NCBI RefSeq assembly: GCF_001306115.1
Contig: NZ_LGCL01000036.1
Coordinates: 1-64,000, forward strand
DNA length: 64,000 nucleotides
Direction of reading: 5' to 3'
Source: Ornatilinea apprima
Lineage (GTDB): Bacteria > Chloroflexota > Anaerolineae > Anaerolineales > Anaerolineaceae
The stretch's first letter is position 1; every line of letters starts with the position of its first letter. Made by a program: the position numbers and the translations under genes. The notes under the pieces were generated by a model. That model searched no databases, had not been told where the DNA came from, and saw nothing but the letters and a program-made list of their open reading frames with translations. Shown here piece by piece: positions 15,364-28,635 of the stretch.

Positions 15364-16662
15364 TCAGACCGCAGATTGGTGAAGCATTTCGTCCTGCATT
15401 TTTCGCAGCTGGTAGACAAATTTGGAGGTGTCGGGGGCAACGGCGTCTTCGGTGAGCGGTGTGCCTTGGGGAATGTCTTTGAGAATGGTCGCACCCGGAG
15501 CGATGCCCATTGGGATGGCTTTCATGGCACGGGCGTCTTTGTAGGTGTAAATGCGGTTGAAGATATCCGCGCTGCCAATGCCGCCGATGACTTCACCGGC
15601 TTTGAGATCACGTTTGGCAACCGAAACAACCTCTGATACCATGTCTTTGGCTACCACGGTGGTTTCACCGTAGATGGCGGCTTCGGCCACAGCTAATGGC
15701 GTTTCGATGTTGCAGAGATGGAAGGGACGCAGGAAGAGATAATATGGGCCGTTGCCCATCGAGACAAAGCGCAGGTCAGCGTGAATGCGCGGGTCATCGG
15801 TGGTGACAATGGCGAAAACGCCGGGGGCGATGTTACCGGTGGAGTAATCTACGCAGCCGCTCTTGGAGAGCACGCCGCCGTCTTTTTGCGGGATAAAGTG
15901 CTTTGTCAGATCGGGCAGGTCCACTTTGGGACCATGCATACCGGGAATATCGGGAACCAGCCCTGTGGCGTTGGAGACAGCGGCCATCTCGACCATTGTT
16001 TTTGTGCCGTCCTTGAAAGACGCCAGCATTTTGGGGTTCATGTTTTTGCTTTCAGCTTCGGCGCGGCAGGAATCAGGGCTGGCTTCGTAATTGATAACGT
16101 TATTCTTTCCCTTGCCCAGGCAAACAACTTCGAAACCCATACTGGAAGAAAAGTCGTAGAGCATTTTACAAACGGCTGGCTCGTCGCCGGCGGCAACGGT
16201 GTAGACGCAGCCGGTTTTCCGGGCCATGCGGCTGAGGAAAACGCCCACGGTAACATCGGTCTCCACATTTAACATGGTGATGTTCTTTTTATTGAGGATG
16301 CAGTTCCAGGCAACTTGCGCGCCAATTTCGGTGATGCCAGTGGCTTCCACAACCGCGTCGATGTTGTCCAGGCGAGTGAGCAGTAATGCGTCTTCGGTTA
16401 CCAGATATTTGCCTTTGCTGAGGGCATCGGAGGCGACGGCGTAATTGGACGTAACCACGATTTCAGAGCGCGGGATGCCAATAGAGATAAATGTCTCAAT
16501 GGGCCGTTCGGGGTTCACGTCGGCGATTGCGACGGTTTCCATGCCAGGCATTTTGCGGGTGATGTGGACCATGCCAGAGCCCATCTGGCCACAGCCGACA
16601 AGCCCAACGCGAATCAATTTTCCAGCGTTCTGGAGTTTTAATAAATGTTGATATAGTTCCAT
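15364..16662 (-). CDS. NAD(P)-dependent oxidoreductase with C-terminal SAF domain (homoserine-dehydrogenase-like, COG4091 type)
   Basis: A 432-residue protein. The Rossmann motif VGCGQMGSG (about 22-30) and a homoserine-dehydrogenase-like core (VEATGITEIGAQVA; LNVETDVTVG; VYTVAAGDEPA) are followed by a SAF domain (about 350-420: VSVAKRDLKAGEVIGG and PLTEDAVAPD), the antifreeze/pyruvoyl-type fold found in sugar-acid dehydratases. Homologues are called predicted homoserine dehydrogenases, but they usually sit in sugar or polyol operons, as here, so a sugar-derived substrate is more likely. Immediately downstream of the FGGY kinase (24 nt). The precise reaction is unknown. Confidence 0.8.
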   Translation of the reverse strand: MELYQHLLKLQNAGKLIRVGLVGCGQMGSGMVHITRKMPGMETVAIADVNPERPIETFISIGIPRSEIVVTSNYAVASDALSKGKYLVTEDALLLTRLDNIDAVVEATGITEIGAQVAWNCILNKKNITMLNVETDVTVGVFLSRMARKTGCVYTVAAGDEPAVCKMLYDFSSSMGFEVVCLGKGKNNVINYEASPDSCRAEAESKNMNPKMLASFKDGTKTMVEMAAVSNATGLVPDIPGMHGPKVDLPDLTKHFIPQKDGGVLSKSGCVDYSTGNIAPGVFAIVTTDDPRIHADLRFVSMGNGPYYLFLRPFHLCNIETPLAVAEAAIYGETTVVAKDMVSEVVSVAKRDLKAGEVIGGIGSADIFNRIYTYKDARAMKAIPMGIAPGATILKDIPQGTPLTEDAVAPDTSKFVYQLRKMQDEMLHQSAV

Positions 16663-16686
16663 TGGAATGACTCCATGATTAAAAAT

Positions 16687-18249
16687 TTATTCCTTCGAGA
16701 GTTTGCGAAGATTTGCCAATTCTCTGAAGTTGGGTTTGATGTTGTTGTAAACATTTTTGAAGAGGCCAAAATATTGCATATAGCGCTCGTGGTTGGCGGC
16801 GATGGGTTCCAACGGATCGATATACTCAGCCCAATCGCGCGCGATGGTGAAATCTGTAAACACCCCGGTTGAGACACCTGCCAGGATGGCATCTCCAAAG
16901 GGAGCACCGGTGCGGCGGTGGGTGAGAACAGTTTCTATATTGAAAACATCGGTGATGATGCGGCGCCACAACTGGCTCTTGGCGCCACCTTCATTCAATA
17001 CCAGGGGATATCGGATGGGGATGCCTGCGTCTTTGATCAACTGGAAGGAATCGTACAGCGCGTATGCGACGCCTTCCATCGCAGCGCGAATGAGGTGGCC
17101 TTTGTGATGGTTCAGCGAGAGACCGAAGACCACGCCGCGGGCATACACATCCCAAATGGGCGTGCGCTCGCCCATTAAGAAAGGTAAAAAGAGCAACCCT
17201 TCAGAGCCGACCGGCACTTTTTGGGCTTCGAGGTTGAGCAGATCGTAGGAATTGATGCCCATTGTGCGCTCGGCTTCAATTTCCAGAGGGGAGTAATTGT
17301 CGCGGATATAGCGCAGCGTTTGCCCACCGGTGGTTGTGGTGGGGACGGTGATGTAGGTGTTTTCTGAATCTACGGTGTAGGCGAAATTGATGGAGGAGGC
17401 GCCAATCTCGGTGAACATAAAGCCGGTGTCTTTGAAGATGACGCCAAAATTACCGCAGGTGCCCAGGTTCATCTGGATGTCGCCCGTTTCAATGGCGCCG
17501 CCGCCCAGCCAGCCCGCGTTGCAATCCACCTGACCAGCCGCAACGGGCGTGCCAGCCGCCAACCCGGTTTGTTCTGCGGCAGCGGTGGTTACTTCTCCGA
17601 CAATGTCTGTGCAGCGGTAAATGGGAGGGATCAGGTCGGGGCTGATTCCCAGTTTATCGAGGAAATCCTTTTTGAATCCACGGCCTAGAATATCGTAGGC
17701 CACACCGTAAAAGGCGGCCGCTGAAAGGTTGACGGTGGCTTTGCCCGTCAGTTTGAGGGTGACGTAGCCGTCAATGGTCAGCGCTTTGTCAATGCGCTTG
17801 AAGTCATCGGGGCGGTTGCGCTGTTCCCATAACAAGTTGACGAGTGAAGGGTGGTCATCGAGGCGATTGGCTGTGAGATTGAAAACTTCATTCTCGCCGA
17901 GGTTCTCTTTGATCCATTCCACTTCGGTCAGGGCGCGTCGGTCCATCAGATTGTAGGCGCGGTTGACCGGCTGGTGGTTTTCATCTACCATCACCATTGA
18001 GGGCAGCGCGGATGAAACGGCTACGCCGCGGATCTCTTTGGGGTTGACCCGGGATTCGGCTAAGGCCATGCGAATCAGGCGGCAGGCAGCATCCCAATAG
18101 CGGTGAGCATCGTGCTCCGACCAGCCAGGCTGGTCCGTGTAGATAGGATATTCTTCAAAGGCAAAGCCTAAAACCTGGCCTTGTGTGTCGATGATGCAGG
18201 CTTTCGCGCCTCCTGTGCCGAAATCGATTCCTAGCAGAAAATCAGCCAT
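16687..18249 (-). CDS. FGGY-family carbohydrate kinase (xylulokinase-like)
   Basis: A 520-residue sugar kinase that phosphorylates a ketose or polyol with ATP. N-terminal phosphate-binding [16 protein letters not shown] segment; [10 protein letters not shown]; the catalytic Asp in [14 protein letters not shown]; the ATP-binding [14 protein letters not shown] near the C-terminus. The start at 18249 is favoured by GAGGAG seven bases upstream; a longer reading from 18276 would overlap the regulator gene. Second gene of the leftward operon. Substrate could be a pentulose, a deoxyketose or a tetritol; the family cannot be resolved further by eye. The rightward arm carries a second, different FGGY kinase. 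Confidence 0.88.
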
Positions 18250-18272
18250 CCGGTTCGCTCCTCTTGTTTTCG

Positions 18273-19220
18273 TCAATTGCGCAGCAGCATCTCGGCTGTG
18301 CGGTCATCGGTTACCAGAACATTGATCAATTTCGCGCGCAGCGCGGCGCGAATGGCAATCCATTTTTCTTCGCCGCCGGCCACACCGATCACCCGGGAGA
18401 TGCGTTTGACCTGGTGTAGTTCCAGACCAATAATGCGGTTGTGGATGGGGTCTTCGATCCGCTCGCCATTTTGATTGAAGTACTGCAGGCAAATATCTCC
18501 AATGGCGCCTTTTGCAACCAGACGGTCGACTTCTTGCGGGGTAAAAATTTCATTTTGCAACACCGCTGAATCCGGGGAAAAAACGCCCAGCCCAACCACG
18601 GCAATCTGCGCGGCAGCGGCCATACTCAGTGCTTTTGAAACCGCGGGGGCATTGATCAGCGCGTTGCGAACTTCCGGTGAATTGACAACACCGGGCGCGC
18701 TGAGAATGATAGGCCTGGCTTCAAAGGCCTGGGCCATCCGGCGAGTCAAATCTACGCCATTGATTTCAGCGTCTGGCTGGCTCATGCCACCTAACATCTG
18801 CACCACACGGATGGCCGGCCAATGTTCAGCGGGCAGCGAGTCTACCACAGAGAGGAGTGAGCTGCCCCAGGTAAGTCCAATGACCTCATCTCCCTTGATG
18901 CTGCGAACCAGCGCTTCGGCAGCCAAAGGTCCCAGCGCGCGGATGACACCTTCACGATTGTAGGAAGGGGGAGTGGTGGTAATGACTTCATCGATGCCAT
19001 ATTTTTTCTCGATGGCGTGTTCCAGGTCTGAGCGGCCGTCTTCAGGGGCGGACAGGCTGATTTGAACGATCTTCTGTTCTCGGGCCTGCTTAAGCATACG
19101 AGACACCTTGATACGAGACAAACCAAGCCGCTTGCCGATTTGCTTCTGGGTCAATCCGTCTTCGTAATATGACTTGGCAATTTTATACAGGATGCGCTGC
19201 TGGTCTATTTCGTCGTACAT
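18273..19220 (-). CDS. SorC-family sugar-responsive transcriptional regulator (leftward)
   Basis: A 315-residue regulator. The N-terminal helix-turn-helix (about 5-55, [24 protein letters not shown]) is followed by a large phosphosugar-binding domain with the family landmarks [31 protein letters not shown] and [11 protein letters not shown]. SorC proteins are tetramers that bind DNA until a phosphorylated sugar is sensed. First gene of the leftward operon, divergent from a second SorC gene (19559). Its promoter (19267-19295) is followed by a palindrome shared with the other promoter. Confidence 0.93.
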
Positions 19221-19233
19221 AAGCTTCCGTGAA

Positions 19234-19247
19234 TGAAAATATTTTCA
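19234..19247. promoter_or_regulatory. Palindromic operator of the leftward SorC promoter
   Basis: Perfect 14-bp palindrome TGAAAATATTTTCA, lying about 12-25 bp downstream of the predicted transcription start of the leftward regulator and just before its ATG. An identical copy is at 19456-19469, so it is a strong candidate SorC binding site. Confidence 0.75.
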
Positions 19248-19266
19248 GTATTGAAAATCTGTTTAG

Positions 19267-19295
19267 ATCATACCAAACCCACAGTCTCAAGTCAA
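19267..19295 (-). promoter_or_regulatory. Sigma-70-type promoter of the leftward sugar operon
   Basis: On the minus strand TTGACT (19290-19295), a 17-bp spacer and TATGAT (19267-19272). Both boxes match the consensus at 5 of 6 positions. Points to the SorC gene at 19220. Confidence 0.7.
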
Positions 19296-19305
19296 GTGAA
19301 CATTA

Positions 19306-19321
19306 ATGATCATGTGATCAT
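19306..19321. promoter_or_regulatory. Central palindrome between the two divergent promoters
   Basis: Inverted repeat ATGATCA-TG-TGATCAT, with 7-bp arms. It sits upstream of both promoters, so it could bind an activator or a global regulator; no specific factor is recognised. The rest of the 338-bp intergenic region (19221-19558) holds only the promoters and the paired operators. Confidence 0.45.
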
Positions 19322-19403
19322 ATTGGCTGGAATGGTTGATTTGGAAACAGGACGGCATCTGTGGTTGCAATTGTTTATGTATGGTTATTGGAAATTTGGG
19401 TAC

Positions 19404-19432
19404 TTGACATGCATTTTACAATATGTTAATAT
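19404..19432 (+). promoter_or_regulatory. Sigma-70-type promoter of the rightward sugar operon
   Basis: Consensus TTGACA (19404-19409), a 17-bp spacer, and TAATAT (19427-19432). The operator palindrome at 19455-19470 starts about 15 bp past the predicted transcription start. Confidence 0.7.
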
Positions 19433-19454
19433 GCTTATGAACAATTTTGCAAAT

Positions 19455-19470
19455 ATGAAAATATTTTCAT
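19455..19470. promoter_or_regulatory. Palindromic operator of the rightward SorC promoter
   Basis: Perfect 16-bp palindrome ATGAAAATATTTTCAT containing the same 14-bp core as 19234-19247. Position just past the start of transcription suggests roadblock-type repression. Confidence 0.75.
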
Positions 19471-19558
19471 TAAATGTTCATTGCTGAAATTAACGCACCC
19501 AATTATTGGTAATCCCATCTTTTTAACCGCTCAACTTTATCCACCGAATGGATCTTGC

Positions 19559-20551
19559 ATGGCGAAACTAACCACCAAAGAAGAAATGCGGCTGCTGAGC
19601 AAGGTTGGAAAGCTCTATTATGAAGAAGGGCTTACCCAAAATGAGATCGTCGACAGGCTGCAGCTGTCTCGCGCGAAGATCTCTCGTCTCTTGCAGGCGG
19701 CTCGTGATCGTGGGGTGGTTCAAATCATGGTCATTTCGCCTCCTGGAATTTACCCAGATTTGGAAATGCAAATTGAAACCCGCTACCAGTTGAAAGAAGC
19801 CATTGTGGTCGAAGTAACCGAGCCAGAATCGTCTGAATCTGTCTCGCGTGAACTGGGCGTAGCGGCTGCCAATTACCTTCAGCGCATCATTCGTGAAGAT
19901 GAAACGCTGGGTGTTTCGTGGGGAACCACGCTGAGCCACATGGCTGCATCTCTGCAGCCAAATATCTTTCCTGAAGCGCAGGTGGTGCAATTATTGGGCG
20001 GTTTAGGCGCACCCGAATCGGAAGTGCATGCCACCGATATTTGCCGCCGCATGGCGCGTATGTTGGGCTGCCGGCTGACATTGATGCCTTCACCGGGAAT
20101 CGTGGACCGCCAGGAGATTAAAGATATTATTCTCTCGGACAGTCATGTTCAAAAAGCGTTTGACAGTTTCAGAGATTTATCGACCGTTTTTCTGGGGATT
20201 GGCGCGCCAAATGACCAATCGGTGATGCTGACCTCGGGGACGATCTTAACCCAAAAAGACTTGCAGGAACTGCTCGAGTGCGGCGCGGTTGGGGATATTG
20301 CGCTGCGCTTCTTTGACAAGTTTGGCCAGCCTGTGCGCTCCGAGTTGGATTCGCGGGTAATTGGCATTGGATTAGACCAGTTATGCAAAGTGGATCGGGT
20401 GGTTGGAGTAGCCGGTGGTAGTCACAAGGTAGAAGCCATTTTGGGGGCGCTGCGCGGAAAGCTGGTCAATGTTCTCATCACTGACCAGGTTACGGCTCGG
20501 CGCTTGCTGGAGCCGTTTGGAAATTTCAACGGTGCGCGTGGCAGGAATTAA
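19559..20551 (+). CDS. SorC-family sugar-responsive transcriptional regulator (rightward)
   Basis: A 330-residue paralogue of the leftward SorC regulator. Helix-turn-helix at about 10-60 (YYEEGLTQNEIVDRLQLSRAKISR), then the effector domain with GVSWGTTL, VVQLLGGLG, GIGAPN, GDIALRFFDKFG and VVGVAGGSHK. Start at 19559 aligns with the paralogue; an upstream in-frame ATG at 19481 would overlap the promoter/operator region, although no strong ribosome-binding site marks 19559. First gene of the rightward isomerase/transporter/kinase operon. Two SorC proteins with the same operator imply cross-regulation or different inducers. Confidence 0.92.
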   Translation: MAKLTTKEEMRLLSKVGKLYYEEGLTQNEIVDRLQLSRAKISRLLQAARDRGVVQIMVISPPGIYPDLEMQIETRYQLKEAIVVEVTEPESSESVSRELGVAAANYLQRIIREDETLGVSWGTTLSHMAASLQPNIFPEAQVVQLLGGLGAPESEVHATDICRRMARMLGCRLTLMPSPGIVDRQEIKDIILSDSHVQKAFDSFRDLSTVFLGIGAPNDQSVMLTSGTILTQKDLQELLECGAVGDIALRFFDKFGQPVRSELDSRVIGIGLDQLCKVDRVVGVAGGSHKVEAILGALRGKLVNVLITDQVTARRLLEPFGNFNGARGRN

Positions 20552-20614: not shown

Positions 20615-22027
20615 ATGGCCAAAGCGACATTGGGTTTGATTGTTGGTAACCGGGATTTCTTTCCCAGCCGGTTTGTAACGGAAGGAAGAAATGATTTGCT
20701 GCAACTGTTCAAAGAAATGGACATTGAGGCGATTGTCATTGATGAGAAAGAAACCAATCTGGGCGGTGTTGAAACCCGCTCGGAGGCAAAAATTTGTGGC
20801 GAATTGTTCAAAAAGAATATTGACAAAATCGAAGGTGTGCTGGTCATTTTGCCCAATTTTGGAAATGAGCTTGGTATTGCTGAAACGCTGCGAATTTCTG
20901 GCTTGAATGTGCCGGTGTTGGTGCAGGCTTATCCGGATGATGTGCAGAAAATGAGCCTGGAAGGCCGGCGCGATTCTTTCTGTGGCAAGTTCTCGGCCTG
21001 CAACGTTTTGCGCCAATATGGATACGCATATTCGCTGACTGCCAATCACACTGTTCACCCGAAGTCGGAAAGTTTCCGCAAGGACCTGGAAAAATTTGTG
21101 GCGGTCTGTAAAGTGGTCAAGGGCCTGAAGAAGGCCCGCCTTGGCGCGATCGGCGCGCGCCCGGACGCCTTTAAGACGGTGCGCTTTAGTGAAAAACTGT
21201 TTGAACGCTCCGGAATCAGTGTTACCACGGTTGACCTCTCGGAGATTATCGGTAATGCCAGCCGCTTGAAAGACACCGATTCGCAAGTTGTGAGCAAGCT
21301 GGATGAAATCAAGAGCTACGTCCCAACGCAAAAAGTACCGGCTGCCTCGCTGTTGAAAATGGCGAAGTTGGGTCTGGTAATTGAGAATTGGATGAATGAT
21401 AACGAAATCGATGCCACTGCTATACAGTGCTGGGAATCGATCCAGAAGAATTACGGGGTCAATGTTTGCGGCCTGATGAGCATGATGGGTGAAAAACTAT
21501 TACCGAGCGCGTGCGAAGTGGATGTGGCGGGCGTTTTGGGTATGTATGCTTTGACCCTGGCTTCTGGCAAACCCAGCGCGCTGGTGGATTGGAACAACAA
21601 TTACGGCGATGACCCGAATAAGTGTGTGCTCTTCCACTGCGGCAACTTCCCCAAGTCTTTCTATGACGACAAAGTGGAAATGTACCTGGCAGATGTTCTG
21701 GGGACGACTTTGGGTAATGAAAATGTGTACGGCGCTCTGGCGGGCCGCATTCCAAGTGGACCTTTGACTTACGCGCGCGTCAGCACCGACGATGTGAACG
21801 GAAAAATTCGCACTTACTTTGGCGAGGGCCGCTTTACGGATGATGAGCTCCCGACCTTTGGCGGCCGCGGCGTCATCGAAATCCCCAATATGCAGACCTT
21901 GCTGCAGAACCTTTGCAAGGGTGGGTTTGAGCATCATGTCGGTATCAGCCGATCTCACGTTGCGGGTGTTCTGGAAGAGGCGTTTGGCACGTATCTAGGA
22001 TGGGAAGTTTACTATCACAAAGGATAG
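20615..22027 (+). CDS. L-fucose/L-arabinose isomerase-family protein
   Basis: A 470-residue enzyme of the fucose/arabinose isomerase superfamily (COG2407-like), which interconverts an aldose and its ketose using a divalent metal. Supporting segments: N-terminal LGLIVGNRDFFP, the central WESIQKNYGVNVCGLMSMMGEKLLPSACEVD-type region where the metal-binding Glu (MMGE) and Asp (CEVD) fall, VDWNNNYGDD, and late FHCGNFP and HHVGISRSH, which contribute His ligands. AGGAGAGG precedes the ATG. The family also contains sugar isomerases with unusual substrates, so L-fucose or L-arabinose should not be assumed. Likely makes the ketose for one of the FGGY kinases. Confidence 0.82.
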   Translation: MAKATLGLIVGNRDFFPSRFVTEGRNDLLQLFKEMDIEAIVIDEKETNLGGVETRSEAKICGELFKKNIDKIEGVLVILPNFGNELGIAETLRISGLNVPVLVQAYPDDVQKMSLEGRRDSFCGKFSACNVLRQYGYAYSLTANHTVHPKSESFRKDLEKFVAVCKVVKGLKKARLGAIGARPDAFKTVRFSEKLFERSGISVTTVDLSEIIGNASRLKDTDSQVVSKLDEIKSYVPTQKVPAASLLKMAKLGLVIENWMNDNEIDATAIQCWESIQKNYGVNVCGLMSMMGEKLLPSACEVDVAGVLGMYALTLASGKPSALVDWNNNYGDDPNKCVLFHCGNFPKSFYDDKVEMYLADVLGTTLGNENVYGALAGRIPSGPLTYARVSTDDVNGKIRTYFGEGRFTDDELPTFGGRGVIEIPNMQTLLQNLCKGGFEHHVGISRSHVAGVLEEAFGTYLGWEVYYHKG

Positions 22028-22092
22028 TGGACTGGATTAGATACGCCTGCTAACCTGACGATCTTCCGGTATGAAAGAACCATCACGGTTAG

Positions 22093-22102
22093 AGGAGGTG
22101 AT
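22093..22102 (+). other. Orphan extended Shine-Dalgarno-like sequence in the binding-protein leader
   Basis: AGGAGGTGAT is a 10-nt perfect complement of the 16S rRNA 3' end, but no start codon lies 4-12 bases downstream. The binding-protein gene starts 127 nt later with its own AGAGGAG. Confidence 0.6.
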
Positions 22103-22228
22103 AATAAGGTTAGGAAGCGAGAAGAGAGAACCTTAAGAAAATGCAGTCAGTATTTGGCTGCAGAGCTCAAAATGGAGCGAAGCAACAGCTTTCTGAATTC
22201 TCTACCAATAAAGAGGAGATCTCAACAA

Positions 22229-23251
22229 ATGAAGAAGCTTTTTGGAATTCTGAGTGTTTTGATCATTGCTGCTTTCATTCTCGGCGCATGCGCACCGAAA
22301 GCCGCTGCCCCGGCCGCCGACGATGGCGAAAAGAAGATCAAAATCTGTTTTGTTTTCCAGGACCTGGAAACTGAATTCTGGGTAGCCGGCCACAAAGCGA
22401 TCACCGAAACCCTGGCCAGCAAAGGCATTGAAGTTTTGGAGCGCAATGCTAACGAAGATGCCAACCGCAGCTTGGAAATGGTTAAGGACTGCATCACCCA
22501 GGGCGTCGACGGCATCATGCTGATCCCGCAAGATGGTGAAAGCGCTGTGAATATCATTGGCGTTGCCAACGAAGCCGGTATTCCGATTGGTATCTTCAAT
22601 CGCCCGCCTTCCAATGATAGCAACCCTGCGATCGTGATTGTTGCTGACAACGAAGCCATTGCTGAAGACGCTGTTGAATATATGGCGCAGCAGGCTCAGA
22701 AACTTGGCCGCCAGGTTACTCCCTTAATCATGGTTGGCGATCTGGGTGACCCCAATGCCGTTGGCCGCCGCCAGGGCTTTATGAATGTCATCGAAAAATA
22801 CCCTGATCTGTGGACGACCGCTCCGATCGAAGTCCCGACCAAATGGGACGCCGCTGTTGCTCAGGCTGGTCTCGAGAACGCCATGCAGGCGAACCCGGAT
22901 GTTGACTTCCTGTTCACTTCTTCTGACTTCATGTTCCCGCTGATCCAGGGCGTGTTGGAACCGCTTGGAAAATGGGCGAAAGTTGGAGAAGAGAACCATG
23001 TGATCATGGGTGGTCTGGACGGTGATGTGACGGCCTGCCGCTTACTGAAAGAAGGTTGGATTGACGCGACTGGTGTGCAAGACCTGTATTTCGAAGCTGA
23101 CTCTCTAATGACCGCGATGCTTTCTTCCATCGCTTTGGGTGAGAAGACCCCCGAGAACTGGATTGACGATCCTGGTTTCGCTTTGACCGGTGGAAACCTG
23201 GCCGAGCGCGAAATGGATATGTGGGGCTGCAAACTCCTGGCTGAGAAGTAA
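22229..23251 (+). CDS. Sugar ABC transporter substrate-binding lipoprotein (RbsB-like)
   Basis: A 340-residue periplasmic-binding-protein type 1 domain on a lipoprotein anchor. Signal peptide with lipobox LGAC (Cys at about 21), then an Ala-rich linker and two Rossmann-like lobes beginning KIKICFVFQDLETEFW and carrying the family's QGVDGIMLIPQD and VGDLGDPNAVGRRQGF segments. Relatives bind ribose, xylose, arabinose, allose or other monosaccharides in the extracytoplasmic space. Start at 22229 chosen for AGAGGAG and the signal peptide. The leader has an orphan Shine-Dalgarno-like sequence and the gene is followed by a strong hairpin. Confidence 0.92.
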   Translation: MKKLFGILSVLIIAAFILGACAPKAAAPAADDGEKKIKICFVFQDLETEFWVAGHKAITETLASKGIEVLERNANEDANRSLEMVKDCITQGVDGIMLIPQDGESAVNIIGVANEAGIPIGIFNRPPSNDSNPAIVIVADNEAIAEDAVEYMAQQAQKLGRQVTPLIMVGDLGDPNAVGRRQGFMNVIEKYPDLWTTAPIEVPTKWDAAVAQAGLENAMQANPDVDFLFTSSDFMFPLIQGVLEPLGKWAKVGEENHVIMGGLDGDVTACRLLKEGWIDATGVQDLYFEADSLMTAMLSSIALGEKTPENWIDDPGFALTGGNLAEREMDMWGCKLLAEK

Positions 23252-23277
23252 GCGCAGCTACTTTTACAGCACTTCGA

Positions 23278-23306
23278 TTGGGGGGCAGGCATTGCCTGCC
23301 CCCCAA
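23278..23306 (+). other. Stem-loop between the sugar-binding protein and its permease
   Basis: Near-perfect inverted repeat with 14-bp arms (23278-23291 and 23293-23306), very GC-rich, followed by A rather than T residues. It is not a standard terminator; it probably stabilises the binding-protein mRNA end or limits expression of the permeases. Confidence 0.65.
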
Positions 23307-23388
23307 AAAACTCGAATTTGGTCTCTCATCCTGAATTTCCTGAGCACCCACTCTTGCTTCATTTTCAACTAGAAGGACTTTTCGCACA

Positions 23389-24474
23389 ATGACGACGATT
23401 AACCTAGAGAAATCCAAAACATGGGTAAAGGTGCAGCAATTTTTCCATCGAATGCTGTTGTCTGAGTATTTTGTGCTTTACCTGTGCTTGTTTTATTTTG
23501 TCGTTCTTATACCATTTGTTCCCATCATTGCATCAGGCAGAAACCTGACGAATTTATTTTCCAATATCTGGCCGTTATTTGCGATTGCGCTGGGGCAAAC
23601 ATTTGTGTTAATTATTGCCGGCATTGACCTTTCCCAAGGGTCGATTATGGCCGTCTCGTCTGTAGTTGGGGCGGTCATCATCACCAATCAGGTCGATCCG
23701 ATTTTATTTACCAAAAGTCCTTTATGGGGGAGCGTGGTGTCAGAGTCTGGCGGCTTGCTGGCCGGTCAGAGCTATGCCATACCGGTTGCGATTCTTGCCA
23801 TGCTGATGACGGGTGTGATTATTGGTTTTATCAATGGTATCTCTGTGGCCTGGTTCAAGATTCCGGCGTTTATGGTAACGCTGGTGACCCAAATTTTCTT
23901 CTCTGCCTTTGCAATCTATTTAACCAAGTCTGAAAATGTTATCCACCTGCCCAAAGAGTTTACTGCTATTGGTAACGGGACCCTGTTTGGCATGTCTTTG
24001 CTGCCATACACGCTGTTCTTGACCCTGGCTTTAGCTGCGTGCGCCCATTTTTTGCTCAGCCAAACCGTATTCGGCCGCTGGCTTTATGCAATTGGAAACA
24101 ATGTGCGCACGGCGGTTGTCTCGGGCGTGCCAACCGAAAAAGTAGTCGTTCTGGCTTATGTGTTCAGTGGTTTCTGCGCTTCTTTTGGCGCTGTGCTGTA
24201 CACGGCCCGGTTGGAAGCCGGGCGGCCGACTTTGGGCGCGAACCTGCTGCTGGATATTGTGGGCGCGGCTGTGATTGGCGGCGCCAGCCTTTCGGGCGGC
24301 AAAGGCAAAGTGGTCTGGACGCTGTTCGGCGTTCTCTTCTTGATGCTACTGGCAAATTCGCTGAGCCTGTTGAATGTGCCATACTTCACCATTTACATGG
24401 TGAAAGGTGGAGTCATTTTGCTGGCCGCGCTGGTGGATGTTACCCGCACACGCATTTTACAAAGAAACGCATAG
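23389..24474 (+). CDS. Sugar ABC transporter permease 1 (RbsC-like)
   Basis: A 361-residue integral membrane protein with about 8-10 hydrophobic segments. The BPD_transp_2 family signature is present: ALGQTFVLIIAGIDLSQGSIMAVSS near the N-terminus, VTLVTQIFFSAFAIYLT in the middle, and GAAVIGGASLSGGKGKVVWTLFGVLFL in the C-terminal half. Together with the second permease (26000-27025) it would form a heterodimeric channel, with the two-domain ATPase encoded between them. It starts 137 nt after the binding-protein gene, beyond a stem-loop. Confidence 0.92.
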   Translation: MTTINLEKSKTWVKVQQFFHRMLLSEYFVLYLCLFYFVVLIPFVPIIASGRNLTNLFSNIWPLFAIALGQTFVLIIAGIDLSQGSIMAVSSVVGAVIITNQVDPILFTKSPLWGSVVSESGGLLAGQSYAIPVAILAMLMTGVIIGFINGISVAWFKIPAFMVTLVTQIFFSAFAIYLTKSENVIHLPKEFTAIGNGTLFGMSLLPYTLFLTLALAACAHFLLSQTVFGRWLYAIGNNVRTAVVSGVPTEKVVVLAYVFSGFCASFGAVLYTARLEAGRPTLGANLLLDIVGAAVIGGASLSGGKGKVVWTLFGVLFLMLLANSLSLLNVPYFTIYMVKGGVILLAALVDVTRTRILQRNA

Positions 24475-24492
24475 GGTGAAGGAGCGAAATTG

Positions 24493-26013
24493 ATGAGAAA
24501 TGTTATTTTGGAATTCAAAGCGATTAATAAGAGCTTCTTCGGCGTTCAAGTGTTGGAGGGTGTTTCCTTTCAGCTTGAGCAGGGCAGTGTGTTGGGCTTA
24601 ATCGGTGAGAATGGGGCGGGGAAAACCACCATGATGAATATTTTGGGCGGTGTTATCCCCTATGATTCAGGCGAGCTGCTTTTGCGGGGCGAGCATTATC
24701 GACCAGAAAATCCAGGAGACGCGCAGAAAGCCGGGATTGGTTTCATTCACCAGGAATTAAACCTTTTTACCAATTTAAGCATCGCCGAAAACCTGTTCAT
24801 TGAGTCGTTTCCCCGAGTTAAAGGAATGCCCTTTATTGATCGTAAAACCATTCACGATCATACAAAAGAATTTCTACAGATGGTCGACCTTGAGTTTTCG
24901 CCCGATGTACTTGTAGAGCGATTATCACCAGGCGAGCGACAGCTGGTTGAAATTGCCAAAGCGCTGAGTTCGGATGCGCAAATCATCATCTTTGATGAGC
25001 CGACCACCTCACTGACCAATCGGGAGACTGAGAGGTTGTTCAACATTATCGAGCGCCTCAAGAAGGACGGCCGGTCGATCATTTATATTTCCCACATTCT
25101 GGGTGATGTAAAGCGCCTCGCCGACAACATTCTGGTTTTGCGCGACGGATCGGTGGTGGGCGGAGGCTCTGCCAATGATTTTGACATCAACCGCATGATT
25201 TCCATGATGGTTGGGCGCGACATTACTCAGCTCTATCCTTCTCGCAAAACCGCACCCACTACCACCCCTGTTCTCTCCGTCAATGGGTTGCGGCAGTCGG
25301 GTATTGTGGAAAACATCAATCTCCAACTGCACAAAAAAGAGATTTTAGGCATGTTCGGGTTGATGGGGTCGGGACGCTCTGAGCTGGCGCGCATCATCTT
25401 CGGCCTCGACCCATACGAATCGGGTGAAATTGTCATCAATGGAAAGAAGGCCAGCCGCGTAAATCCGCGAACCAGCATTGCCAATGAGATCGCCTTTGTG
25501 ACTGAGAACCGCCGTGAAGAAGGTCTGCTCATGAACCTGCCTGTGGCGGATAATATTGGGCTGGTTGCGCTGCCGACCTACTCCACGCAACGGCTCAGGA
25601 GGGTTGACCGCTCGCGCATCACGAAAGCGATTGACGATGTGACGGATTTGCTGAAGATCAAAGTGGCGAATGTGCACAAAAGCCTGGCAAAAGGTCTCAG
25701 CGGCGGCAACCAGCAGAAGGCAGTGATCGGAAAGTGGTTGCTTTCCAGGCCCAGCGTTCTGATTGTGGACGAGCCGACTCGCGGTATTGACGTGGGCGCG
25801 AAGTATGAGGTGTATAACATCATCAATGATCTGTCTGCGGAGGGTGCCTGCGTGCTCTTCATTTCTTCTGAACTTGAAGAACTGATGGGTGTGTGTGACC
25901 GCATTCTGGTGATGAGCTATGGCGAAATCACGGGTGAATTTGTCCGCGAGGAATTTAATAAAGAAAGTATTCTGCGCGCTGCATTCAGGGAGAATGGAAA
26001 TGGCTCAAAGTAA
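24493..26013 (+). CDS. Sugar ABC transporter ATP-binding protein with two ABC domains (RbsA/XylG-like)
   Basis: A 506-residue ATPase with two nucleotide-binding domains. Domain 1: Walker A GENGAGKTT, signature LSPGERQ, Walker B IIIFDEPT. Domain 2: degenerate Walker A region GLMGSGRSE, signature LSGGNQQK, Walker B VLIVDEPTRGID. The weaker second P-loop is normal for this subfamily. AAGGAG precedes ATG 24493; the TTG just before is too close. It powers import through the two flanking permeases, and the downstream permease gene overlaps its 3' end by 14 bp. Confidence 0.94.
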   Translation: MRNVILEFKAINKSFFGVQVLEGVSFQLEQGSVLGLIGENGAGKTTMMNILGGVIPYDSGELLLRGEHYRPENPGDAQKAGIGFIHQELNLFTNLSIAENLFIESFPRVKGMPFIDRKTIHDHTKEFLQMVDLEFSPDVLVERLSPGERQLVEIAKALSSDAQIIIFDEPTTSLTNRETERLFNIIERLKKDGRSIIYISHILGDVKRLADNILVLRDGSVVGGGSANDFDINRMISMMVGRDITQLYPSRKTAPTTTPVLSVNGLRQSGIVENINLQLHKKEILGMFGLMGSGRSELARIIFGLDPYESGEIVINGKKASRVNPRTSIANEIAFVTENRREEGLLMNLPVADNIGLVALPTYSTQRLRRVDRSRITKAIDDVTDLLKIKVANVHKSLAKGLSGGNQQKAVIGKWLLSRPSVLIVDEPTRGIDVGAKYEVYNIINDLSAEGACVLFISSELEELMGVCDRILVMSYGEITGEFVREEFNKESILRAAFRENGNGSK

Positions 26014-27025
26014 TCATAAACTGCTGATGCTGGCCCTTAAGAACACGCCGATCATTCTTTTTGTCGTTGTTTTTGTGGTCTTCGGTGTGCTTTCGCCCAG
26101 GTTTTTCTCGCTGCAAAATTTTGAAAACCTGCTCCGACAATCATCTTACATCGGCATTATCGCGGTAGGTATGACGTTTGTACTGCTGACGGGCGGGATT
26201 GACCTATCCGTTGGGGCGATTATGTATGTGGCCGCTGTGATCTTTGGAAAGATGGTTGAAGCGGGGATGAACCCCTGGCTGGCGGTGGCGGCCGGTATGC
26301 TGGCCGGCACGTTTTTTGGCGCGATCAACGCGTTCTTCATTACGAAACTCAAAATTATTCCGTTCATGGTTACCCTGGGAACGTTAACTGCGCTGCGCGG
26401 CCTGGGACTATTCATGACCAAATCGTATCCGCTGCATATACCTGACAATGTAAAGATCGGCGCAATTAAGTTTTTTGGGTTTATTCCTGTGCCGATTTTC
26501 TTGTTTGGTCTGGTGGTGCTGATTGCCTTTCTGGTGCTCAATCTCACACCTATTGGCCGGCAGATTTACGCGGTGGGGAATGATGTTGAAGCAGCTAAGA
26601 AAGCCGGTTTGAACACCAACCGCGTTCTCGCTACGGTTTACATTATCAGTGGTTTCTGCGCGGCGATGGGTGGTCTGATTGCCCTTTCGATGCAGGGATC
26701 CGTTCAGGCCGGATTTGGCACCGGTGACGAGTTCGACGCGATTGCCGGTTCGGTTTTGGGCGGCACAAGCCTGTTCGGCGGTGTGGGCACGGTTTTCCCC
26801 GGCACGGTTCTCGGCATGGTGCTGATCCAGATGATTCAAGCCGGGCTTGTGTACATCCAATTGGATCTGTATATCCAGCCTTTGGTAACGGCGGGGGTGA
26901 TTTTCCTGGCGGTGTTTATTGATGCCTTCCGCAGCGGGTTGTTGAAGAAGATGGAGCGCCGCAATATCCGCATGCAGCGCGAGACTGAGACGAAAACGGA
27001 AGTTAATACCGTACCAACTTCTTAA
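26000..27025 (+). CDS. Sugar ABC transporter permease 2 (RbsC-like)
   Basis: A 341-residue membrane protein of the same family as permease 1, but clearly divergent from it. It has the core VGMTFVLLTGGIDLSVGAIMYVAAV, MVTLGTLTALRGLGLFM, GRQIYAVGNDVEAAKKAGLN, and GTSLFGGVGTVFPGTVLGMVLIQMI. The polar C-terminal tail has many Arg and Glu residues. Start at 26000 is set by AGGGAG eight bases upstream inside the ATPase gene. Two different permeases around one fused ATPase implies a heterodimeric channel. Confidence 0.92.
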   Translation: MAQSNHKLLMLALKNTPIILFVVVFVVFGVLSPRFFSLQNFENLLRQSSYIGIIAVGMTFVLLTGGIDLSVGAIMYVAAVIFGKMVEAGMNPWLAVAAGMLAGTFFGAINAFFITKLKIIPFMVTLGTLTALRGLGLFMTKSYPLHIPDNVKIGAIKFFGFIPVPIFLFGLVVLIAFLVLNLTPIGRQIYAVGNDVEAAKKAGLNTNRVLATVYIISGFCAAMGGLIALSMQGSVQAGFGTGDEFDAIAGSVLGGTSLFGGVGTVFPGTVLGMVLIQMIQAGLVYIQLDLYIQPLVTAGVIFLAVFIDAFRSGLLKKMERRNIRMQRETETKTEVNTVPTS

Positions 27026-27050
27026 CCTGTTTGAATTATGGGTATTTTGG

Positions 27051-27082
27051 GCTCCTCTTGTTAACAGATTAGCAAGAGGAGC
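27051..27082 (+). other. Hairpin after the sugar ABC transporter
   Basis: Stem GCTCCTCTTG/CAAGAGGAGC (10 bp, 12-base loop) followed by only a weak T-rich stretch. Probably attenuates transcription into the kinase gene or protects the transporter mRNA. Confidence 0.55.
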
Positions 27083-27126
27083 ATTTCTCATCCAGATAAA
27101 TACAGCCATCATTGGAGGATAACCCC

Positions 27127-28635
27127 ATGACTCATTTGCTCGGATTGGATATTGGAACCACTGGTTGCAAAGCTACACTGTTTGATTTGCAGGGAAAACT
27201 GGTCTCGGCGGCCAGCCATGAGTATTCTGTTCAATTTCCCAAGCCCGGTTGGGCGGAACAGGACGCGGAGCTGGTGTGGGACCTTGCTCAACAAGTGATG
27301 AGGGAAGTGACCTACAAGAGCGGGCAGCGAAATGTAGCCGCGATCGGGTTGTCGGTTCAGGGGGAGGCCATTACCCCGGTGGACGCCAAAGGCAACGCGC
27401 TGCGCCCGATGATTTTAGGGATGGACACTCGCACTGTAGAGCAAAACCAATGGCTGGAAGAAAAATTCGGCAAGAAACGTTTGTTTGAAAAAACCGGCAT
27501 GCCCATCCATACCATTAACACACTCCCAAAGCTGCTCTGGCTGCGCGAGTTTGAGCCCCAGTTGTGGAAGGAAGCCGAACGCTTCATGCTCTATGAAGAT
27601 TTTCTGATTCGCAAGATGACCGGTGAATCTGTGGTCAGCCGCTGCCTGGCGTCGCGCACGCAGTTGTACAGCCACCAGGAAGATGGGTGGTCCGTGGAAG
27701 TATTGGAAGCCCTAGACCTGGATCAAAAGCGCCTGTCCGTAATTGCCGATTCGGGCTTCGCGGTTGGGCGGCTGCATCGCAAGATTTCTGACGCGATTGG
27801 ATTTGCGGAACCACCAATGGTAGTGACGGGTGGGCATGATCAATCTTGCGGTGCGTTTGGGGTGGGCCTGACCCAGCCTGGGTTAGCCAGCGTATCTACG
27901 GGGACAGCCGAGGTGGTGGAAGTGGCGCTGGCTTCTCCCAATGTAAGCCAACCTTTGTTTGAAGGGAATATCTCGGTTTATGCACATGTGTACAAGAAAT
28001 TGTTTGTCACCATGACGTTAAACCATAGTGGCGGGTTGTTGTTCCGCTGGTTCCGCGACACTTTTGGACAAGAAGAAATTCGCGAGGCGCAGACCAGCGG
28101 TGAAGACGCCTACCAGCTTTTGTTAGCCAACGCGCCAGAAGGGCCGACGAATCTGCTGGTTTTGCCGCATTTCTCTGGCTCAGGCACACCTACCTTTGAC
28201 ACTGCCTCTAAGGGCGCTATTCTGGGAATGGGATTCACGACCTCAAAGGCCGAAATGGCCAAGGCGATTCTGGAGGGGTTGACGTATGAGCTGCGATTGA
28301 ATTTGGATGTGATGCGCAGCGGCGGCGTGCAGATTGATGAGCTGCGCGCGATTGGCGGAGGCGCAAAGTCGGATCTGTGGCTGCAGTTGAAAGCCGATAT
28401 CACCGGCACGCGGGTTGTCGTTCCGCAGGTTACCGAAGCCGCCTCAATGGGAGCCGCTTTTCTGGCCGGGCAGGGCGCCGGTTTGTTCGCAGACGCTGGT
28501 GAGGCAGTTAACCAATATTTGCGGTTTGGAAAAGTGTTCGAGCCGGACAACCGCCGCGTGAAACAGTATGAAGAAAAATTCGCGTTGTATTCGGAAGTGT
28601 ACCCAACGTTAAAGTCCCTTCATCATCGTATGTAA
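27127..28635 (+). CDS. FGGY-family carbohydrate kinase (xylulokinase-like), second copy
   Basis: A 502-residue kinase closing the rightward sugar operon. Phosphate-binding LGLDIGTTGCKATLFD, GMDTRT, the catalytic Asp in TGGHDQSCGAFGVG, and a C-terminal RAIGGGAKSDLWLQLKAD adenine/ribose segment. Start ATG 27127 has GGAGG eight bases upstream; the upstream TTG is the ribosome-binding region itself. It differs strongly in sequence from the leftward FGGY kinase (16687-18249), so the locus probably phosphorylates two different compounds, or the two sit in sequential pathways. Substrate unassigned. Confidence 0.88.
   Translation: MTHLLGLDIGTTGCKATLFDLQGKLVSAASHEYSVQFPKPGWAEQDAELVWDLAQQVMREVTYKSGQRNVAAIGLSVQGEAITPVDAKGNALRPMILGMDTRTVEQNQWLEEKFGKKRLFEKTGMPIHTINTLPKLLWLREFEPQLWKEAERFMLYEDFLIRKMTGESVVSRCLASRTQLYSHQEDGWSVEVLEALDLDQKRLSVIADSGFAVGRLHRKISDAIGFAEPPMVVTGGHDQSCGAFGVGLTQPGLASVSTGTAEVVEVALASPNVSQPLFEGNISVYAHVYKKLFVTMTLNHSGGLLFRWFRDTFGQEEIREAQTSGEDAYQLLLANAPEGPTNLLVLPHFSGSGTPTFDTASKGAILGMGFTTSKAEMAKAILEGLTYELRLNLDVMRSGGVQIDELRAIGGGAKSDLWLQLKADITGTRVVVPQVTEAASMGAAFLAGQGAGLFADAGEAVNQYLRFGKVFEPDNRRVKQYEEKFALYSEVYPTLKSLHHRM

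Follow-up and report, generated by a model that had tools for sequence, protein, structure and literature searches.

The DeoR protein of Bacillus subtilis, a regulator of the same family as those described here that acts at dra-nupC-pdp, forms a tetramer, which in solution requires its complete two-part operator for binding, and this operator spans positions -60 to -21 and represses (PMC11229326). In its left half, the DeoR operator has a 14-mer of the form TGAAN6TTCA with a half-site spacing of 8 bp (PMC11229326), and counting from the printed operator places its two halves 22 bp apart. CggR of B. subtilis likewise forms a tetramer on tandem imperfect palindromes, which lie downstream of the promoter, and a dimer-of-dimers assembly on a two-part operator has been reported for both proteins (PMC11229326). 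CitI of Weissella paramesenteroides, also of the SorC family, serves two divergent promoters through two intergenic operators (PMC10798043).

The locus analyzed here lies in a stretch of 64,000 nucleotides from Ornatilinea apprima (the window) and carries two divergent SorC genes. It shares with DeoR the 14-mer with half-sites 8 bp apart, a two-part operator of the kind bound by a tetramer, and a site that overlaps a -35 region. However, the half-site sequence is different, the halves of the window elements are 18 bp rather than 22 bp apart, and deoR lies upstream of a single operon without a partner regulator. The palindromes downstream of a promoter recall CggR, although that protein has a different DNA-binding domain and its GC-rich repeats, about 21 bp apart, occupy a site from +32 to +77. 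CitI resembles the present case in its divergent promoters and paired intergenic operators but is a single regulator, works as an activator and is bound more strongly to DNA in the presence of citrate.

Two divergent SorC genes and their promoters

The leftward and rightward genes of the divergent pair, here named sorC-L (18273-19220, minus strand; 315 aa) and sorC-R (19559-20551, plus strand; 330 aa), encode SorC/DeoR-type regulators, and each heads an operon. The left operon continues with genes for an FGGY carbohydrate kinase and a DRL/SAF-domain oxidoreductase (15364-18276, minus strand; Pfam assignments), while the right operon encodes a fucose-isomerase-like protein, a sugar ABC transporter and a xylulokinase-like FGGY kinase (20615-28635, plus strand; Pfam and NCBIfam assignments). 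The left-operon genes are linked to sorC-L elsewhere as well: SorC-L orthologues (45-54% identity) mostly have the same kinase and DRL oxidoreductase genes as neighbours, and in several relatives isomerase and transporter genes adjoin them. The ATG of sorC-R at 19559 matches the start of orthologues that are 61% identical. The assembly of 4.34 Mb contains 11 SorC genes; when its contigs were searched for SorC-L, a single-protein query gave no matches and an alignment-based query succeeded. The neighbours of one SorC paralogue, on contig C7 (loci L001 and L012), are limited to genes for a LacI-family protein and an FKBP-type isomerase.

Both proteins carry the PF04198 C-terminal sugar-binding domain, with scores of 219.5 bits for SorC-L (E 5.6e-65) and 247.1 bits for SorC-R against a cut-off of 27. 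The nearest full-length solved structure is in both cases B. subtilis DeoR (8r7y; E 2e-43 for SorC-L and 1.6e-50 for SorC-R), and the alignments span almost the entire length of the two proteins, including the N-terminal helix-turn-helix DNA-binding domain. Because of this homology to a solved protein, the fold of SorC-L and SorC-R can be considered settled. Their scores against the NCBIfam equivalog model of B. subtilis DeoR (NF053881), 234.4 and 264.9 bits, respectively, are below the curated cut-off of 420, and the two proteins are thus relatives of DeoR rather than DeoR proper.

The preliminary description of this region had drawn attention to its symmetry, and the elements that it named were all recovered. 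A consensus scan predicted sigma-70-like promoters for sorC-L (TTGACT-17-TATGAT, 19295-19267, minus strand) and sorC-R (TTGACA-17-TAATAT, 19404-19432, plus strand), each with a TG preceding the -10 box; both the positions and the start points are consensus-based predictions. Where a promoter could be identified in SorC-L orthologues, TTGAC-17-TAnnAT mostly occupies the corresponding place. The palindrome TGAAAATATTTTCA occurs as an exact match at 19234-19247 and 19456-19469, each copy beginning about 13-17 bp past the inferred start point, and the third palindrome, ATGATCA-TG-TGATCAT, is present between them at 19306-19321. A terminator scan of the intergenic region found none.

At up to two mismatches, TGAAAATATTTTCA has three matches in the 64-kb window compared with 0.41 expected. 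The genome-wide scan proposed with the preliminary description yielded four exact copies of the 14-mer in 4.34 Mb, all four just upstream of SorC genes: two in the window, one before a SorC gene on contig C7 and one before a SorC gene on contig C24. This association of 4/4 exact copies with SorC genes rules out that the 14-mer is a chance AT-rich palindrome. Its general form, TGAAN6TTCA, is found in 18 of 101 SorC promoter regions from the assembly and its relatives, as against 1.5 in shuffled sequences.

A 32-bp candidate operator unit of four half-sites

The palindromes are parts of a larger element. In its predicted form, the operator unit is 32 bp long and comprises four half-sites, each of 6 bp, at offsets 0, 8, 18 and 26, a spacing that we denote 8-10-8. 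A search for repeats identified 19232-19263 and 19440-19471 as inverted copies of each other, and the 14-mer constitutes the promoter-distal half of the elements 19234-19265 and 19438-19469. The candidate operator at 19234-19265 (TGAAAA/TTTTCA/TGAAAA/TGTTTA) spans the sorC-L start region and holds the copy at 19234-19247, while that at 19438-19469 (TGAACA/TTTGCA/TGAAAA/TTTTCA) spans the sorC-R start region and holds the copy at 19456-19469. The third palindrome, too, makes up one half of such an element: the candidate operator at 19289-19320 (AAGTCA/TGAACA/TGATCA/TGATCA) contains the core of 19306-19321 and lies mostly upstream of the sorC-L -35 box, with its fourth half-site overlapping the -35 hexamer. 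None of the three elements is assigned to a strand. For reasons given below, the first two are referred to as SorC-R-type and the third as SorC-L-type sites.

Dozens of related SorC promoters show the same 8-10-8 spacing. When 18 promoters of the SorC-L clade were aligned on their best 14-mer, half-sites recurred at +18 (z 5.5) and +26 (z 4.2), two offsets that had not been selected for in the alignment. The best four-half-site score averaged 13.95 of 16, compared with 9.4 in shuffled sequence, where the 99th percentile is 12. Four half-sites spaced in this way would fit a dimer of dimers on a two-part operator, as for DeoR and CggR. A DeoR-like distance of 22 bp between the halves was considered and rejected, since for all three window elements, each scored with its own matrix, the best partner of the 14-mer lies at 18 bp.

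Two departures from regular spacing were also observed. In the window, an extra TGTTCA at 19475-19480 lies 5 bp beyond the sorC-R operator and is shifted by one base from the register of the half-sites. At the SorC genes with an LSTA helix (L010 and L128), which have TGAAAT/ATTTCA half-sites, the pairs are 19 bp apart instead of 18.

Half-site sequence and regulator clade

Among the candidate operators compared, half-site sequence tracks the clade of the regulator, TGAAAA being found with the SorC-R clade and TGWTCA-like half-sites with the SorC-L orthologues. Maximum-likelihood analysis places SorC-R in a ten-member clade (support 99/91) together with the C7 paralogue and eight relatives with TGAAAA operators, and SorC-L groups with L185, L187 and two Leptolinea proteins (100/97). 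Among the relatives of SorC-R, those whose helix reads LSR[SA]K carry TGAAAA operators downstream of the -10 box, as with TGAAAAtaATTTCAatatTGAAAAtaTTTTCA in L200. Many SorC-L orthologues have an operator of TGATCA/TGAACA/TGTTCA half-sites that abuts the -35 box, such as TGATCAtaTGATCAgtctTGTTCActTGACAC in Leptolinea tardivitalis, whose protein is identical to the window SorC-L at 13 recognition-helix residues and is associated with TGWTCA-like half-sites. The third palindrome of the window (TGATCAcaTGATCAttaaTGTTCActTGACTT) has the same place and is of the same sequence type as this -35-side operator, and the conservation of both place and spacing among SorC-L orthologues rules out that it is the site of an unrelated factor. 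Much of the SorC-L clade also carries, past the -10 box, a second operator with C-type half-sites (TGWWCA, or TGTGCA/TGCACA in L160-L162), although the two nearest orthologues, both from Leptolinea, show no clear operator there. TGAAAA operators past the -10 box were not found among the SorC-L orthologues examined.

To compare the sites quantitatively, half-site matrices were derived from eight SorC-R-clade and 26 SorC-L-clade operators, with the window excluded. Both sets were picked by eye from hits to the four-half-site pattern and for the L set the score applied gave preference to C at position 5, so that absolute matrix scores are approximate. In leave-one-out comparisons of the R-minus-L score, R operators scored at least +26 bits and L operators at most -11.9 bits. 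The corresponding values in the window are +20.6 bits for 19234-19265, +17.0 bits for 19438-19469 and -42.2 bits for 19289-19320. The best and second-best matches to the R matrix in the window are 19234-19265 and 19438-19469, respectively, and the best match to the L matrix is 19289-19320 with 23.8 bits, followed by the two SorC-R-type sites with 12.2 and 10.0 bits. Assembly-wide scans relied on the four-half-site pattern instead of the matrices: the SorC-L pattern, at up to three mismatches of 24, has 19289-19320 as its single match, and the SorC-R pattern has three matches, namely both window sites and C12:287103. The latter element (C12:287103-287134, L018 1501-1532) lies downstream of a TATAAT and in front of a DUF4432 gene that is divergent from an MFS transporter gene; it is a possible extra target of SorC-R.

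These comparisons bear on the two main proposals of the preliminary description. Both types of palindrome are conserved in relatives, each in a different clade, and the view that they are SorC regulatory sites was borne out insofar as they appear to be SorC-family operators placed to block initiation, with one type present in both arms. The proposal that both regulators recognize the shared site was not supported, the SorC-R clade being associated with TGAAAA and the SorC-L orthologues with TGWTCA-like half-sites.

The divergent SorC/SorC pair itself was not encountered in any relative. In Leptolinea UBA4782 (L227/L078), a SorC-L orthologue with an upstream operator is divergent from an operon whose last gene encodes another SorC protein. 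The product of this terminal gene has a QAT helix, and the facing operon carries an 8-10-8 operator of the TGAATA type past its -10 box (L227 2797-2862); TGAATA-type operators are also found at other SorC genes with QAT helices. Unlike in the window, the TGAATA operator is present in one arm only and the operators are not shared between arms. Its occurrence at the operon of a QAT-helix SorC gene supports the notion of clade-specific operators.

The link between helix residues and half-sites has exceptions, such as L205, where a RAK helix is found with TGAACA. Outside the two clades the association is noisy, and the automatically generated table, with parsing artefacts in the QKQ and QAE rows, serves as a pointer only. 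Two further patterns were seen in the collection. TGAGCA-type palindromes are common to SorC genes whose helix residues are RQS, RQM or RVT (L066, L083 and L047), which form an apparent specificity group, and the promoters of L160-L162 (genes L184, L188 and L189) combine two half-site types, TGAACA upstream of the -35 box and TGTGCA/TGCACA past the -10 box.

Proposed asymmetric control of the two operons

With the third palindrome, to which the preliminary description had assigned no regulator, of the SorC-L type and both 14-mer sites of the SorC-R type, control of this locus is more likely asymmetric than mutual. We consider it probable that SorC-R governs both arms from two operators and SorC-L its own promoter from the third. 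Unliganded SorC-R would sit on 19234-19265 and 19438-19469; as these sites start beside the -10 boxes and cross the inferred start points, the bound protein should block initiation at both promoters. SorC-R would then keep both operons repressed until a sugar or sugar phosphate effector frees the DNA, and SorC-L would act on its own promoter only, via the site overlapping its -35 box. The candidate operators, their spacing, their positions and their clade assignment are read from the sequences, and from these we infer binding, repression and effectors.

It is improbable that both SorC-L and SorC-R recognize TGAAAATATTTTCA and repress both arms in a circuit of mutual and self control, with the third palindrome as an extra. 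Identical 14-mers in mirror positions are what such a circuit would display, and the SorC-R-type sites retain SorC-L-matrix scores of 10-12 bits. Each of these sites also has one C-type half-site beside the -10 box (TAAACA and TGAACA, respectively), unlike the eight relatives used for the matrix, and this half-site, which SorC-L could read, might allow weak or joint binding of that protein. However, the SorC-L orthologues examined lack TGAAAA operators and have C at half-site position 5, even where the recognition helix is identical, and a strong SorC-L-type site already lies between the genes. The combination of three A-type half-sites and one C-type half-site in each window operator, not seen in the eight relatives, also raises the idea of mixed tetramers, or of joint operator recognition by the two proteins, so that a composite operator might integrate two sugar signals; of all the schemes considered, we regard this one as the most speculative and very unlikely.

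The TGAAAA sites might instead be read mainly by a paralogue encoded elsewhere, the stand-alone SorC of C7 or the SorC of C24, within a wider network of cross-talk. Both of these genes are preceded by the same exact 14-mer, and the C7 protein, whose gene lacks an adjoining sugar operon, is the sister of SorC-R (100/96), with 61% identity and the same SRAKISRLL helix. We nevertheless hold this to be unlikely as the main route of control, since SorC-R directly adjoins its sites and the promoters of its orthologues carry TGAAAA operators of their own. Cross-talk would moreover add to asymmetric control by SorC-R rather than exclude it. The listed contamination of 8.7% for the assembly bears on cross-talk with both C7 and C24, and contig C7 could be a contaminant of the bin. 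Repression itself is not certain, given that CitI, of the SorC family, uses two operators to activate a pair of divergent promoters (PMC10798043), and the SorC-L-type site, which lies mostly upstream of the -35 box, might by analogy serve activation while only the sites past the -10 boxes repress. Its fourth half-site, however, overlaps the -35 hexamer in the manner of the DeoR operator, which represses from -60 to -21 (PMC11229326), and in many orthologues a further operator of the SorC-L type is located past the -10 box. An activating role has about the same low probability as control by a paralogue.

As for the purpose of asymmetric control by SorC-R, in several relatives a single SorC gene lies beside kinase, DRL, isomerase or transporter genes of both window arms (L171, L190, L194 and L196). 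This suggests a possible coordinating role: the shared SorC-R operator may keep the two halves of the pathway coordinated after a second SorC gene became a neighbour.

Taken together, the analysis replaces a visual symmetry with a wiring diagram that can be tested: two regulators and three operators, with one operator type common to both arms. The 8-10-8 grammar places 18 bp between the dimer sites, compared with 21-22 bp in two structurally studied SorC repressors, and the match between a few recognition-helix residues (RIK, RAK/RSK, QAT and RPK) and half-sites could be used to predict what the SorC regulators of uncultured Chloroflexota and Planctomycetota target.
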